NCBI GenBank assembly: GCA_003166855.1
Contig: PMUM01000196.1
Location: 1 to 35,736, forward strand
DNA from: Acidobacteriaceae bacterium
GTDB taxonomy: Bacteria; Acidobacteriota; Terriglobia; Terriglobales; Acidobacteriaceae
Reading direction: 5' to 3'
DNA: 35,736 nucleotides
Shown: positions 1 through 5,458 of the stretch, in pieces
How positions within the stretch are numbered: position 1 is the first letter of the stretch
How the letters are laid out: every line of letters starts with the position of its first letter
Translations under genes and position numbers: made by a program
The notes under the pieces: model-generated
What the model saw: only the letters and a program-made list of their open reading frames with translations
What the model was told of the DNA's origin: nothing
The model's database searches: none

Positions 1-9
1 GTCTGCTGG

Positions 10-240
10 ATGCTGACTTCGAAAGACCAACTCCTGACCAATCATGAGGAATTCCGCAGATTGGCTCAGGAACATACGCAGTACTCGAAACGTCTCGATT
101 CACTCACCCAAAAACGTTATCTCAGCGAAGACGAAAAGCTCGAAGAAGTGCGTCTGAAGAAGCTGAAACTCCGCCTCAAGGATCAAATGGAATCCATTGA
201 GCGCGAGTATCGGCAACAGTACGGCGTTAACGTAGCGTAA
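10..240 (+). CDS. DUF465 (YdcH-like) small coiled-coil protein
   Basis: The 76-residue protein is charged, helical and free of cysteine or membrane segments. It matches the DUF465/YdcH family pattern: an N-terminal helix with EFRRLAQEH, a [12 protein letters not shown] turn near residues 36-46, then a second basic helix with [11 protein letters not shown]. Family members are about 70-80 residues, so this looks full length. They are cytosolic helical hairpins of unknown role. The ATG at 10 is very near the window edge, so its ribosome site cannot be judged. A strong intrinsic terminator follows 54 bases after the stop, so the gene ends its transcription unit. Confidence 0.8.
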
Positions 241-1084: not shown

Positions 1085-1951
1085 ATGGATCAGACTCCCC
1101 CCAGACCGCGACGCCGCCTCAGTAAAGGGATGTACATCCTCCCCTCGCTGTTTACCACCGCCAATATGGCATTGGGCTACTACGCCATCCTCGAGTTGAT
1201 GCATGCCACACTCACGGAGTTTTGGCACCTCGACAACGCGGCCAAAGCGATCGGTTTCGCGGTTCTGTTTGACGGCATCGATGGTCGCATCGCGCGCATG
1301 ACCGGTACCAGCAGCGACTTTGGCAAGGAACTGGATTCTCTTGCAGATGCGATTACGTTCGGCGTGGCCCCAGCCATGCTGGCTTGGACCTGGGGATTTT
1401 ATCTGATGCCGCCCGTCATGCTGACCGATTGGCACAACAATTGGCACGTCAAACTGACGCAGTTGGGAGCGATCGCCAGCTTTCTTTTCCTGGTCGCCGG
1501 AGCCAGCCGCCTGGCGCGATTTAACATCACCAGCAATCCGCAGCCCTCGAATCCCGGTCGTCCAGGAAAGAAATATTTTGTCGGCATGCCCATTCCGGCT
1601 GGCGCCGGCGTGATCGCCGCCGTGGTTCATTTCACCGGTGGGGATCCTCTCGAGTCCTGGTATACGGCACTGGTCTGGCTCGCCATGGTGACGACTGTCG
1701 GTTACCTCATGGTGAGCACGTGGCGCTTTTACAGCTTCAAGGATATCGACTTCCGCTCGCGCCATCCCTTCCGCCTCATTCTTTTTCTGGGCGCGCTGTT
1801 TGCCTCCATCTGGTTCTTTTCGCGCCAGATGCTCTTTTTTATCGCGCTGCTCTATATGGTCTCCGGTGTTTTCTGGCGGGTGCAATGGATGTTTCGTCGC
1901 AAGAGTGACCCTCCACCGCCCCCTTACAAGGAGGCTTCGCAGACGTCATGA
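1085..1951 (+). CDS. pssA: CDP-diacylglycerol-serine O-phosphatidyltransferase
   Basis: This integral membrane enzyme joins CDP-diacylglycerol and L-serine to give phosphatidylserine, the substrate of the adjacent Psd. The CDP-alcohol phosphotransferase signature DGxxAR(x8)GxxxDxxxD is complete: D66, G67, A70, R71, G80, D84 and D88. About six to eight hydrophobic segments follow the N-terminal PSLFTTANM helix typical of PssA. The length of 288 residues is normal for the multi-pass bacterial type. It begins immediately after psd. Its TGA overlaps the next start codon (ATGA), showing a tightly packed operon. Confidence 0.94.
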   Translation: MDQTPPRPRRRLSKGMYILPSLFTTANMALGYYAILELMHATLTEFWHLDNAAKAIGFAVLFDGIDGRIARMTGTSSDFGKELDSLADAITFGVAPAMLAWTWGFYLMPPVMLTDWHNNWHVKLTQLGAIASFLFLVAGASRLARFNITSNPQPSNPGRPGKKYFVGMPIPAGAGVIAAVVHFTGGDPLESWYTALVWLAMVTTVGYLMVSTWRFYSFKDIDFRSRHPFRLILFLGALFASIWFFSRQMLFFIALLYMVSGVFWRVQWMFRRKSDPPPPPYKEASQTS

Positions 1952-3024
1952 ACGATTCCGTCAAATCGCCGTCTGCGTCGCATCCTGTTGCCGTCCGTGG
2001 AAGCCTGTACCGTGCTGCCATCGTGGGCGCCGCTTCGCTCAAAGGCAAGGAAGTTGCCGAGATGCTCAACGGGCGCAATTTCCCGGCCGCGGATATTCGC
2101 TTGCTCGATGATGACGAGTCCATGGGCCAGCTCGAGGCCATGGGTGACGAGATCAGTTTCATCCAACGGGTGCACGCCGAGCAGTTTGAGCACGTGGACT
2201 TCACTTTTTTTGCTTCGGATGAAGAGTGCACCCGCAAAAACTGGAAAGATGCTCGCGACGCCGGCAGCGCGATCATCGATCTCTCCGCCTCTTTGGAAAA
2301 TGAAGCTGGGGCCAGTGTGCGATCGGTGTGGATCGAGCGCGAGCGCGGACAAATCCCCACTCCCGATCTCCAGCCCGGCCCGTGCATCGCGGCGCATCCC
2401 GTAGCAGTAACGCTCGCGCTGCTGCTCTTGCGGGCCACCAAGGCAGGCGCCATCCGTCGCGCTGTGTCCACGATCTTCGAACCTGCTTCCGAGCACGGCC
2501 AGCGCGGCATGGACGAGTTGCACCAGCAGACCGTGAACCTGCTTTCGTTTCAGGCTCTGCCCAAAGAGGTCTACGACGCGCAGGTCGCCTTCAACATGAT
2601 CGCCCGTTACGGGCAGAAGTCGCAGCCTTCGCTCGACTCGGTCGAGACTCGCATTTCCCGTCACTATCAGAAGATTGCCGGGGACGCCGCTCCGCGGCCT
2701 TCACTCATGCTCTTGCAGGCGCCCATATTCCACGGCCACGCGCTGGCTGTTTTCCTCGAAATGGAGGGCGCCGTCGACGTGCGGGCCCTGTCGCAAGCCC
2801 TGGCCGGGGATCACGTCACGATTCCGGGTGCGGACGAAGATTCGCCAAGCAACGTGAGTTCCGCGGGCCAGGCAGATATTCAACTCGCGATCAAACCCGA
2901 TCCAGTGCAGCCCAACGGCGTCTGGCTGTGGGCCGCCGCCGACAATCTCCGCATCGCAGCCCTGACCGCAGTGGAATGTGCCGAGAGCATGACTGCCACG
3001 CGCCCCACAGGAAAAATCCAGTGA
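1948..3024 (+). CDS. Aspartate-semialdehyde dehydrogenase-like protein (Usg-like), catalytic Cys missing
   Basis: The fold is that of aspartate-semialdehyde dehydrogenase: an N-terminal NAD(P)-binding start (RAAIVGAASLKGKEV, about 22-36), a FFASDEE segment (87-93), and a dimerisation/catalytic domain with SEHGQRGMDEL (181-191) and APIFHGHA near residues 258-265. At the position of the family's NPNCxT active site the sequence reads HPVAVT (150-155), so Ala153 replaces the nucleophilic Cys. It therefore probably lacks ordinary Asd activity, and resembles Usg-type paralogues. The start overlaps pssA by 4 bp and the end overlaps the lptE GTG start by 3 bp. It is thus embedded in a phospholipid/LPS operon rather than a lysine/threonine pathway. 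The true role is unknown. Confidence 0.85.
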   Translation: MNDSVKSPSASHPVAVRGSLYRAAIVGAASLKGKEVAEMLNGRNFPAADIRLLDDDESMGQLEAMGDEISFIQRVHAEQFEHVDFTFFASDEECTRKNWKDARDAGSAIIDLSASLENEAGASVRSVWIERERGQIPTPDLQPGPCIAAHPVAVTLALLLLRATKAGAIRRAVSTIFEPASEHGQRGMDELHQQTVNLLSFQALPKEVYDAQVAFNMIARYGQKSQPSLDSVETRISRHYQKIAGDAAPRPSLMLLQAPIFHGHALAVFLEMEGAVDVRALSQALAGDHVTIPGADEDSPSNVSSAGQADIQLAIKPDPVQPNGVWLWAAADNLRIAALTAVECAESMTATRPTGKIQ

Positions 3025-3545
3025 AGACGCGTGCGGCGTGCCTGCTGGCGCTGCTGCTGGCGTTCTTGTTGCCGGGATGCGGTTACCACACCGCGGGCCA
3101 TGCGGTTCAGTTTCCCGAGAACGTCAAGACCATCGCCATCCCCACCTTCAAGAACGAGACGCTCACCTACCGCATCGAGCAGATGCTGACGGCCTCCGTG
3201 GTGCGCGAGTTTACGACCCGCACTCACTACCGCATCCTCAACGATCCCAGTGAAGCCGCCGACGCCACTCTGCGCGGCACCGTGCTTTCCACCACGGCTT
3301 CCCCGCTCACCTATGACTCGGCGACCGGGCGCGCTGCCAGCGTGGCAATCGTAGTCAGCGTCAAGGTCACGCTTACCGACCGGAATGGCAAAGTGCTGTA
3401 CCACAATCCGGCGTACCTTTTCCGCGAGCAATACGAACTCTCGCAAGATCTGTCCAGTTTTTTCGAAGAAGATTCCCCCGCGTTCCGGCGCCTGTCCCAG
3501 GATTTCGCCCGCACGCTGGTCTCAAACATCCTGGAGGGATTCTAG
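3021..3545 (+). CDS. lptE: LPS-assembly lipoprotein LptE
   Basis: The 174-residue product has a lipoprotein signal with lipobox LPGC and acylated Cys20. It continues with the LptE hallmark GCGYHTAGH and the sheet segment VKTIAIPTFKNETLTYRIEQ. In the family it plugs the LptD barrel in the outer membrane and helps insert lipopolysaccharide. I chose the GTG at 3021 because it overlaps the preceding stop (GTGA) and gives a proper signal peptide; a much longer open frame upstream in this frame is non-coding. The next gene starts 3 bases after the stop. holA further downstream recalls the conserved lptE-holA pairing. Confidence 0.9.
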   Translation: MKTRAACLLALLLAFLLPGCGYHTAGHAVQFPENVKTIAIPTFKNETLTYRIEQMLTASVVREFTTRTHYRILNDPSEAADATLRGTVLSTTASPLTYDSATGRAASVAIVVSVKVTLTDRNGKVLYHNPAYLFREQYELSQDLSSFFEEDSPAFRRLSQDFARTLVSNILEGF

Positions 3546-3548
3546 GCA

Positions 3549-4157
3549 GTGAAGCGATTTCTTGGTGGTGGCACAGCCTGCCAGCAGAGTAGACAGCCGT
3601 CAAGGGGCGTCATCCCGAGCGGAGCCGTTTTTCAGGCGAAGGGAGGGATCTCAGTCGGATCGATCCGTCCCCGATTTCTTCTTAGGTTAGTGCTGTCAGC
3701 GACTCTGCTCACCTCGGGTTGCGTCTCCGGTTCCCGCCCGCCGCGCATCGGCAATGCCGCCCGCGACTTCACCGTGCAGGACTCCGATCGCACCGTGACT
3801 CTGAGCCAGTTCCGCGGTCAGGTCGTGATCTTGAATTTCTGGGCGACGTGGTGTCCCCCTTGCGTTGTAGAACTGCCCTCGATGATCGCCATGCAAGACC
3901 GCATTCGAGGCAAGGGAATCGTGGTCCTGGGCGTCAGCATCGATGTCGATGGCGACGCTTATCACCGCTTCCTCAAACTGCGAAACGTCAACTTCCTGAC
4001 CGTACGCGATCCGGAACAAAAAGTTGCCTCCATGTACGGGACCACAGGCTGGCCCGAAAGCTACATCATCGATCGTCAAGGCGTGCTGCGCCGCAAGTTT
4101 GTGGGCCCCGTCGACTGGAACTCGCCCGAGGTGATCGACTTTCTGAACAAGCTATAG
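3549..4157 (+). CDS. TlpA-like thioredoxin-fold lipoprotein
   Basis: A thioredoxin/AhpC-TSA-like domain spans about residues 65-200, with the redox motif WCPPC (CPPC at 102-105) and a cis-Pro loop in TTGWPESYI. It is anchored by lipobox LTSGC (Cys58), so it would be a periplasm-facing thiol oxidoreductase like TlpA/ResA. The GTG at 3549 is supported by GGAGGG about ten bases upstream and by its 3-base spacing from lptE. However, the 57 residues before the lipobox are far too long for a signal peptide. About 16 of them (21-36) are translated from a 47-bp intergenic repeat. The only later in-frame start, GTG 3690, gives a truncated signal. The true N-terminus is therefore uncertain; the domain itself is clear. 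Confidence 0.85.
   Translation: MKRFLGGGTACQQSRQPSRGVIPSGAVFQAKGGISVGSIRPRFLLRLVLSATLLTSGCVSGSRPPRIGNAARDFTVQDSDRTVTLSQFRGQVVILNFWATWCPPCVVELPSMIAMQDRIRGKGIVVLGVSIDVDGDAYHRFLKLRNVNFLTVRDPEQKVASMYGTTGWPESYIIDRQGVLRRKFVGPVDWNSPEVIDFLNKL
3608..3654 (+). repeat. 47-bp intergenic repeat, copy A
   Basis: This is one of three near-identical copies in the window (others at 4183-4229 and 8365-8410). It begins GTCATCC and ends GAAGGGAGGGATCTCAG. This copy lies in frame inside the N-terminal extension of the TlpA-like lipoprotein gene. Confidence 0.85.
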
Positions 4158-4182
4158 TTGTTGACGTCCCTAATTAATTTGG

Positions 4183-4229
4183 TGTCATCCTGACTGGAGC
4201 CATTCTTCACGCGAAGGGAAGGATCTCAG
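4183..4229 (+). repeat. 47-bp intergenic repeat, copy B
   Basis: It aligns to copies A and C over its full length, with substitutions mainly in the centre (CATTCTTCACGC instead of CGTTTTTCAGGC). It lies in the 170-base gap between the TlpA-like gene and holA, which otherwise holds an AT-rich stretch near 4270-4300 and no other gene. Confidence 0.85.
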
Positions 4230-4327: not shown

Positions 4328-5458
4328 ATGAAGGCCTTCGCCCAGGCCGAGCGCTTTGTCAGCGAACTGGAATCGCGCAAGCTCCGCGCCGCCTACGTTT
4401 TCGTGGGCGATGAAGCCTTCTTCCGCAAACGCTTTCGCGACGCCATCCTCGAGCATCTCGTCCCGTCCGATCTGCGGGACTTCAGTTTCTTCGAGTTCGA
4501 CCTCGCCGAAAACGATCTGGCGGAAGTTCTCGACCGCGCCCGCACTCCCTCGCTGATGGCCCCGTTTCAAGTCTTCTTCGTGCGCGGCGTCAAGAATCTT
4601 TTCGGCCGCGGTTCCAACGAAGAAAAGCTCGCCGCCATCGAGGACTACTGCAAGAACCCTAATCCCGACGCGCTCCTGGTTTTTGTCGCCGACCACATCA
4701 GTATCCCCGCCGACGTCCGCCGCATGGAAATGCAGGACAAAGAACGCTACCAGCGCATCCGCGAAACCATGGGCCAGTACTGCGGCATCGTCGAACTGGC
4801 GCGCGTGGAAGAAGGCGAAGCGGTCCGCTGGATTTCCGAGTACTGCGCCAGCCGCGGTGATGGAGTAAAGATCGAGCCCGACGGCGCCCGCGAATTAGTC
4901 GACGCCCTCGGCGGTGACATGATGATGATTTCCAACGAACTGGAGAAGCTGATCCTCTACGTTGGCGAAAAGAAGCGTATCACTCTGGGCGACGTCGAAA
5001 CCATGGTGCTAGCCGCAAAGCAGCGCTCGCTCTACGAACTCACCGACGCCATCTCCGCCAAAGAGCGCGTCCGCGCGCTCGAGGTTCTCGACGCGATTCT
5101 GCTTTCCGGTGAAGGTGAAGAAGCCGCCATCGGACACATCTACATGCTTGCGAAAACCTTCCGCCAGATGCTGGTGATTCTCGAGCGCAACGTCCGCGAC
5201 CAGCGCATGCTTTGGGCCGCGCTGTGGCAGGGCTTCCGCGTCCCCCCCTTCGCCGCCGACGACATCATCAAACAGGCCCGCCGCTACAAGAATCGTCGCG
5301 AACTCACCCGCGCCATTCGCCTAGTGGCGAAGGCCGACCTCGCCCTGCGCTCCAATCCCGTCAGCAAACGCATGGTGCTCGAGCGCCTGGTGATGGACCT
5401 GACCACCGAACCCAAGCTCGAAACCCCCGGCTGGATGCAGGAACAGCTGCCGGTCTAG
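4328..5458 (+). CDS. holA: DNA polymerase III delta subunit
   Basis: HolA is the clamp-loader wrench that opens the beta sliding clamp. The 376-residue protein has the delta features: an N-terminal YVFVGDEAFFRKRFRDAI segment (22-40) matching the degenerate nucleotide-binding region, a central FFVRGVKNL strand, the LGGDMMMISNELEKL helix of domain II (about 195-209), and the helical collar domain ending with NPVSKRMVLERLVMDL. No functional Walker A is present, as expected for delta. AGAGG lies 8-12 bases before the ATG. The gene ends 13 bases from the convergent GloVer-repeat gene with no visible terminator between them. Confidence 0.93.
   Translation: MKAFAQAERFVSELESRKLRAAYVFVGDEAFFRKRFRDAILEHLVPSDLRDFSFFEFDLAENDLAEVLDRARTPSLMAPFQVFFVRGVKNLFGRGSNEEKLAAIEDYCKNPNPDALLVFVADHISIPADVRRMEMQDKERYQRIRETMGQYCGIVELARVEEGEAVRWISEYCASRGDGVKIEPDGARELVDALGGDMMMISNELEKLILYVGEKKRITLGDVETMVLAAKQRSLYELTDAISAKERVRALEVLDAILLSGEGEEAAIGHIYMLAKTFRQMLVILERNVRDQRMLWAALWQGFRVPPFAADDIIKQARRYKNRRELTRAIRLVAKADLALRSNPVSKRMVLERLVMDLTTEPKLETPGWMQEQLPV

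Follow-up and report, generated by a model that had tools for sequence, protein, structure and literature searches.

A cysteine-less relative of aspartate-semialdehyde dehydrogenase is conserved across Acidobacteriota and mostly encoded beside pssA

Bacterial aspartate-semialdehyde dehydrogenases (ASADHs; Asd of the TIGR01296/PRK14874 type, EC 1.2.1.11) act through a catalytic Cys that begins a helix, and N-acetyl-gamma-glutamyl-phosphate reductase (ArgC) is also a thiol enzyme. Paralogs of ASADH without this Cys are already known as Usg (USG-1). The Usg proteins of Escherichia coli, Proteus, and Pseudomonas aeruginosa all lack it in our alignment (n = 3), with Ser in the Cys column in E. coli (locus L033, 1137-2150, minus strand; operon pdxB-usg-truA-dedA) and Ala in P. 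aeruginosa (locus L195, 5980-6990; operon leuB-asd-usg-fimV-truA). One study links the Salmonella pdxB-usg-truA-dedA operon to intracellular survival and terms usg a putative ASADH (PMC6358828). Here we describe another such variant, for which we coin the name AsdL (gene asdL), encoded in DNA of an Acidobacteriaceae bacterium (GCA_003166855.1, contig PMUM01000196.1, positions 1-35,736, forward strand; the window, meaning this whole stretch of 35,736 nucleotides). It belongs to a phylum-wide conserved family that is mostly encoded beside pssA, the gene for CDP-diacylglycerol-serine O-phosphatidyltransferase, which is a larger finding than was first noted. The initial annotation had put forward a repurposed dehydrogenase fold in envelope biogenesis as new; a conserved Cys-less protein in an envelope-lipid operon was indeed found, whereas Cys-less ASADH paralogs are not new in themselves, as the three Usg proteins attest. 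Among titles and abstract openings in the literature, a coverage outside which most subscription papers fall, we found no Cys-less ASADH in a psd-pssA operon.

The asdL gene (1948-3024, plus strand) is an open reading frame (ORF) of 358 codons running from an ATG at 1948 to a TGA that ends at 3024. Apart from its nucleophile, the protein retains the ASADH fold in its full two-domain length, as had been proposed: both Pfam domains exceed their cut-off of 26 bits (PF02774, 63 bits; PF01118, 43 bits), and the equivalents of E. coli Asd Ser165, Gln178, and Asp349 are conserved. An AlphaFold2 model computed from 57 Terriglobales sequences (mean pLDDT 82.2, pTM 0.84) matches the structure of P. aeruginosa Usg best (2hjs; Z 36.4, root-mean-square deviation 2.8, 316 aligned residues, 29% identity). 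ASADHs come next at Z of about 35, and ArgC shares the superfamily fold at Z of about 27. The NCBIfam asd models reach at most 149 bits, with every matching model under its own cut-off; Usg is again the top-scoring model, at 149.2 bits against a cut-off of 284 for PRK05671 and 94 against 273 for PRK08040, and the ArgC model TIGR01850 is a much weaker match, at 17.8 bits with a cut-off of 233.6.

Of 199 sampled Acidobacteriota genomes searched with the window protein, 80 contained matches, and a profile search added more. Loci read residue by residue yielded a Cys-less AsdL in 84 of the 199 (75 fetched first, the window, and eight found later), none of them with the Cys, so that the altered motif recurs across the phylum. 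In the window this motif reads CIAAHPVAVT (local sequence PCIAAHPVAVTLA), and the codons for His150-Pro151-Val152 (2395-2403, plus strand) take the place of E. coli Asd Asn134-Cys135-Thr136. The loss of the Cys claimed in the initial annotation is thus borne out, while its replacement by Ala is not: Pro151, and not Ala153, stands in place of the Cys, because the alignment that sets His150-Pro151 opposite Asn134-Cys135 is gapless and the model helix of residues 151-163 begins at Pro151. Ala153 was ruled out as the replacing residue; it sits two positions past Pro151. Over the 84 AsdL sequences the Cys column holds Pro in 68, Ala in nine, Ser in four, Gly in two, a gap in one partial row, and Cys in none, which also answers whether another Cys might occupy the nucleophile position; Cys146 lies five residues ahead of the column and is no substitute. 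Among the Terriglobales sequences (n = 57), Pro151 is invariant and His150 at least 90% conserved.

The loss extends to most of the residues that bind phosphate and substrate. No AsdL keeps more than three of the seven positions Arg102, Cys135, Gln162, Glu241, Lys244, Arg267, and His274 (E. coli Asd numbering; n = 84). Arg102, Glu241, Lys244, and Arg267, which we take to be the substrate- and phosphate-binding residues, are kept in three, five, four, and 13 of the 84, and His274, presumably the acid-base residue, in 33; the titles of Haemophilus influenzae mutant structures are taken to name the equivalent catalytic positions. The window protein has Glu117, Val232, Arg235, and Gln257 at the first four of these and retains the last alone, as His264. 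Other positions have become characteristic of AsdL, namely Pro151, Pro179, Phe261, His262, Trp326, and Trp328, all within former active-site segments; their placement in the cleft is read off the alignment to ASADH positions known from other proteins rather than from model coordinates. The Phe261-His262 pair (codons 2728-2733, plus strand) lies between the places once taken by Arg267 and His274, with Phe in 75 and His in 68 of the 75 rows fetched first (weighted frequencies 1.0 and 0.9 over all 84).

Such conservation around a dismantled site is what a new enzyme might leave behind, and this is the main rival to the reading that we prefer below. The cleft, through His150, His262, Glu178/Glu182, and Gln257, would run a non-thiol reaction on a headgroup, a lipopolysaccharide (LPS) precursor, or some other metabolite. 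That the family-specific residues fall in former active-site segments suits this proposal, as does the persistence of the Phe-His pair even in the diverged short forms described below. However, the candidate catalytic residues are unevenly held, with His150 in 53, His262 in 68, and Glu178 in just 22 of the 75 fetched rows. In several lineages the Gly-rich dinucleotide loop has degenerated (e.g. GIVNPLT or ALFDSST as opposed to GATGAVG), which speaks against redox chemistry in them. On balance we regard a new enzyme as unlikely, if worth keeping in view.

The AsdL sequences form a clade of their own, separated from bacterial Asd by a stem of 1.09 with a support of 100/100 in a careful tree (39 AsdL rows among 52, after 36 near-copies, long or extra rows had been dropped and two added) and recovered with a support of 100 in a quick tree (72 AsdL rows; 86 of 90 rows kept, four short ones dropped). 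The 85 match rows of the window-protein search comprise 80 and the window, fetched first, and four fetched later, of which two are AsdL and two Asd-type. Near the window, where selection was measured, asdL has a median ratio of nonsynonymous to synonymous substitution rates (dN/dS) of 0.095, from the 13 of 21 pairs whose dS was measurable; this resembles psd (0.115) and lptE (0.116), with 0.074 for pssA and 0.044 for holA. The gene is under purifying selection there and is neither a pseudogene nor neutral. Catalytic residues lost within a clade that is itself under purifying selection near the window would be the hallmark of a pseudoenzyme. We tentatively favour, at a little under an even chance, the reading that AsdL is a dehydrogenase-dead protein of ASADH fold with a rebuilt pocket that serves envelope lipid synthesis as an accessory protein or sensor.

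Since Usg shares several of these features, AsdL could instead be the orthologue of gammaproteobacterial Usg and serve the same role. Both lack the Cys, have Gln at the Arg267 place, and carry a QAPxF motif, and 2hjs, the top structure match, is itself a Usg. A clade uniting the two costs 6 log units and is not rejected (approximately unbiased test, p-AU 0.343, with three Usg rows). The trees place Usg variously: with an Asd-II row at 99 in the first tree, with AsdL at 72 in a thinned quick tree, and beside gammaproteobacterial Asd-II in the careful tree, weakly, at 60/100. A single Cys loss and separate losses in AsdL and Usg are therefore both compatible with the trees. The residues and operons differ, in that at the Cys place the Usg proteins (n = 3) carry Ser or Ala, where the window AsdL has Pro, and they show FY or FF (Tyr or Phe at 262) in place of the FH of AsdL. 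The operons pdxB-usg-truA-dedA and leuB-asd-usg-fimV-truA contrast with the order psd-pssA-asdL-lptE, and the window has no truA, pdxB, or leuB-asd neighbourhood beside asdL. We accordingly judge orthology with a shared role to be improbable.

Another line of evidence comes from the aspartate pathway. The window's own genome carries the second, Cys-containing asd whose presence had been put up for checking (contig C41, locus L001, 852-1904, minus strand; motif TNPNCSAI). Elsewhere, AsdL is the only ASADH-type protein found in 22 of the 32 AsdL genomes tested (of 84), a set made up mostly of single-match genomes plus controls and hence no family-wide estimate; additional PF01118 matches of about 30 bits or less were ignored, Asd scoring at least 82 bits elsewhere, and the listed places of the single match are too few to prove that it is always AsdL. 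Twenty of these genomes are 87-100% complete (G004, G020, G045, G047, G072, G078, G081, G092, G093, G100, G102, G111, G120, G137, G144, G146, G154, G177, G178, and G186), and the remaining two, G035 and G048, 79-80%. An aspartokinase (lysC) over the cut-off is missing from 21 of the 22; matches to the aspartokinase model of 19-50 bits, at model positions of about 194-275, are probably UMP kinase. Because no true Asd was detected in 22 of the 32 genomes and 21 of those lack aspartokinase over the cut-off, AsdL appears to stand outside the aspartate pathway, and a role in that pathway was rejected. That AsdL seems to outlast both its ancestor enzyme and the maker of that enzyme's substrate is the strongest argument against ASADH function or partnership with Asd.

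These data bear on two further proposals. One is that AsdL is an ordinary ASADH that uses another residue, as its fold and Pfam domains and its standing as the sole ASADH-type protein found in those 22 genomes might lead one to think. However, the Cys is gone from every AsdL, and Arg102, Glu241, and Arg267 from most, the supplier of the substrate is missing over the cut-off from 21 of the same 22 genomes, and a Cys-type asd stands elsewhere in the genome of the window, so we hold this to be highly improbable. The other makes AsdL a regulatory or structural partner of true Asd through mixed dimers, for which one may cite the conserved elements common to both (e.g. Gln194 and Glu190); the retention of AsdL in 22 genomes where true Asd was not found leaves this the proposal to which we give least credence.

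The pathway picture is not entirely clean. Among the ten tested genomes with an Asd-type match, seven have an aspartokinase over the cut-off and three do not (G001 and G017 have pieces of 94-100 bits, G101 none), and a homoserine dehydrogenase occurs in all ten of these as well as in 10 of the 22 genomes where Asd went undetected. The distribution of dapB, over the cut-off only in G000 (the window's genome) and G084 and missing or weak in the other eight Asd-bearing genomes, is uninformative. The ten genomes with a strong homoserine dehydrogenase and no detectable Asd are G004, G047, G072, G093, G102, G111, G146, G154, G178, and G186; all of them save G111 also lack an aspartokinase over the cut-off. 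G111, 94% complete, has an aspartokinase of 255.7 bits, yet no Asd was found in it. In G000 itself aspartokinase turned up in several pieces and homoserine dehydrogenase in two matches, and some of its genes may be foreign because contamination of the bin is 6.3%.

The setting of asdL, in turn, suggests a role in envelope biogenesis. In the window, the ATG of asdL shares four bases with the stop of pssA (ATGA, 1948-1951), and its TGA shares four with the GTG start of lptE (GTGA, 3021-3024), as expected from the overlaps that the initial annotation described in a lipid/LPS operon; such overlaps suit co-translation. Across the phylum, 74 of the 84 loci have pssA as the gene immediately before asdL, and 69 have psd as well as pssA there (two loci that lack psd are at contig ends), while none of seven Asd-type loci is near psd or pssA. 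That asdL would be fixed between pssA and lptE holds largely for the first neighbour, but for the second it is too narrow beyond close relatives. Among 80 named loci, all with acidobacterial titles and the best 80 of 565 relatives from a contig scan, both pssA and lptE occur in 78, whereas an LptE profile built from the window gene finds lptE in 6 of 76 loci of the wider sample, where diverged LptE may escape it. The gene most often next to asdL in the phylum is pssA, on its upstream side; lptE is a local neighbour. Downstream genes vary, including lptE-holA, a ROK kinase, msbA-yicC-gmk-dfp, macB, and others. Conversely, of 20 pssA neighbourhoods from genomes without a match in the window-protein search, two hold diverged AsdL that the profile had found earlier (L219 and L220), and in the other 18 no downstream same-strand ORF does better than E 0.011 against the AsdL profile; ten downstream proteins, judged by eye, are taken to be a thioredoxin reductase, two RecO, MiaB, an ABC ATPase, a transporter, a transposase, and three that could not be named.

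A short diverged form extends the family further. In family f23, 17 genomes (among them G182, G097, and G158, at loci L230, L231, and L232) carry a short AsdL-like protein; the three that were read are 271-277 amino acids long, lack a Cys at the nucleophile place, keep the Phe-His-Gly motif, and reach E 9e-18 to 3e-17 against the AsdL profile. A profile that takes in the short form and the window protein detects the short form in every one of the 17 f23 genomes sampled and, beyond these, AsdL loci only at E of 1e-8 or less. These proteins are probably AsdL members, judging by motif and profile, and with them the family is present in at least 101 of the 199 genomes; they were kept outside the tree and the residue counts. 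In 12 of the 17 genomes the short form lies about 13-25 kb from a true Asd match on the same contig.

Several observations weigh against an accessory or sensor protein of envelope lipid synthesis. Gene neighbourhood is the whole basis of the envelope link, and the f23 short form is away from pssA in all 17 genomes, lying in 16 either on a different contig or over 100 kb away; no pssA over the cut-off was found in G182, and no psd or pssA in the 3.5-4 kb read around the three short forms. Adjacency to pssA thereby drops to 74 of 101. AsdL is also retained in G093, G146, G154, and G194 without psd or pssA over the cut-off, and psd is about equally common with AsdL (94 of 101 genomes) and without it (89 of 98), so that psd and AsdL are not mutually dependent. 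Lastly, given how unevenly His150 is held, no one new catalytic group is common to all AsdL. A strict role in phosphatidylethanolamine synthesis was rejected on the four genomes, the f23 forms, and the independence of psd; since the four genomes and the 17 f23 forms lack the psd/pssA link, this synthesis would not be the whole job of AsdL.

Of ten loci without psd and pssA on the spot, nine have a DUF465-type cluster upstream and nine msbA or yicC downstream. In these ten genomes, psd lies elsewhere in G060, G072, G111, G178, and G186 and was not found in G012 (75% complete) or in G093, G146, G154, and G194 (92-95%), the latter five having weak pssA-type matches only. A DUF465-type ORF cluster lies upstream of psd, or of asdL directly, in many loci, an assignment checked against Pfam on three proteins. 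DUF465 (YdcH-like) genes at window positions 1-240, L085 4467-4709, and L094 3758-4015 illustrate this arrangement, in which the cluster adjoins asdL where psd-pssA are gone, and the DUF465-asdL link may be as old as that between pssA and asdL.

AsdL might also be a passenger, an inert relic that persists through its position in a conserved operon. The family was not found in 98 of the 199 genomes and so is not needed everywhere, and one member (L103, genome G020) is interrupted by an in-frame TGA at codon 263 (numbered as in the window). A dN/dS of about 0.1 is hard to reconcile with inertness, and the protein persists both where psd and pssA have been lost or lie at another site and in genomes reduced to 1.9 Mb (e.g. 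G004 and G047); we consider a passenger very unlikely. The TGA in L103 directly follows the Phe-His pair, the frame being otherwise open, and has sequencing error, decay, and recoding as candidate causes. A second AsdL with one in-frame stop within its matched stretch, from a Terriglobia metagenome-assembled genome (L179, 4001-5017), was left out of A3 for that reason.

Returning to the accessory or sensor reading, we propose that AsdL is an old Acidobacteriota clade that would have descended from a bacterial-type ASADH and been retained although its thiol nucleophile is gone, along with most of the residues that bind substrate and phosphate. The present protein would be a soluble non-dehydrogenase, probably a homodimer, whose former cleft, rebuilt with Pro151, Pro179, Phe261-His262, and Trp326/Trp328, may bind a ligand other than aspartyl phosphate. 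It could then assist the envelope-lipid operon (psd-pssA, followed by lptE or msbA) or act as its sensor, for example by adjusting the output of PssA to a metabolite. The broader proposition, that AsdL is a distinct phylum-wide family in which, early in the history of Acidobacteriota, an amino-acid dehydrogenase fold became an envelope-lipid factor that has either a new ligand or a new non-thiol active site (Pro151, Phe261-His262, Trp326/328) and a function unlike those of Asd and Usg, is possible, but we hold it with more doubt.

NCBIfam models named aspartate-semialdehyde dehydrogenase are significant matches in all 49 AsdL scanned, and because of this asdL genes may be named ASADH without having its chemistry. 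Pathway reconstructions based on names would then err for lineages in which Asd and aspartokinase go undetected. If the envelope link is true, the fold of an amino-acid enzyme has been recruited to membrane-lipid control. Acidobacteriota are common soil bacteria that have seen little laboratory work, and AsdL offers a concrete gene for bench testing in them. Outside the genome survey, which covered this phylum, the viral contigs searched held no AsdL relative and PADLOC gave no match. Plasmid records gave 98 matches; among the 30 listed, the motif was read in five, two of them Usg (P. aeruginosa and Proteus) and three Cys-bearing (Aeromonas, Streptomyces, and Sinorhizobium).

The remaining genes around asdL in the window are, like it, all on the plus strand. 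The 3' part of the DUF465 gene (1-240; PF04325, 33 bits) is followed by psd, for phosphatidylserine decarboxylase (419-1084; PF02666, 154 bits, with the PRK05305 model over its cut-off), and pssA (1085-1951; TIGR00473, 111 bits against a cut-off of 107). Downstream of asdL are lptE, for an LPS-assembly lipoprotein (3021-3545; PF04390, 59 bits against a cut-off of 23), a gene for a TlpA/ResA-like thioredoxin-fold protein (3549-4157; PF00578, 92 bits), and holA, for the DNA polymerase III delta subunit (4328-5458; TIGR01128, 207 bits against a cut-off of 80). The TlpA/ResA-like gene stands between lptE and holA in 6 of the 80 named loci. Similar stretches of about 45 bases at 3600-3652 and 4176-4229 flank its coding part (GTCATCC...GGAGCC...GCGAAGGGA.GGATCTCAG), and since the first of them falls within the called 5' part of the ORF, the real start is probably further downstream.

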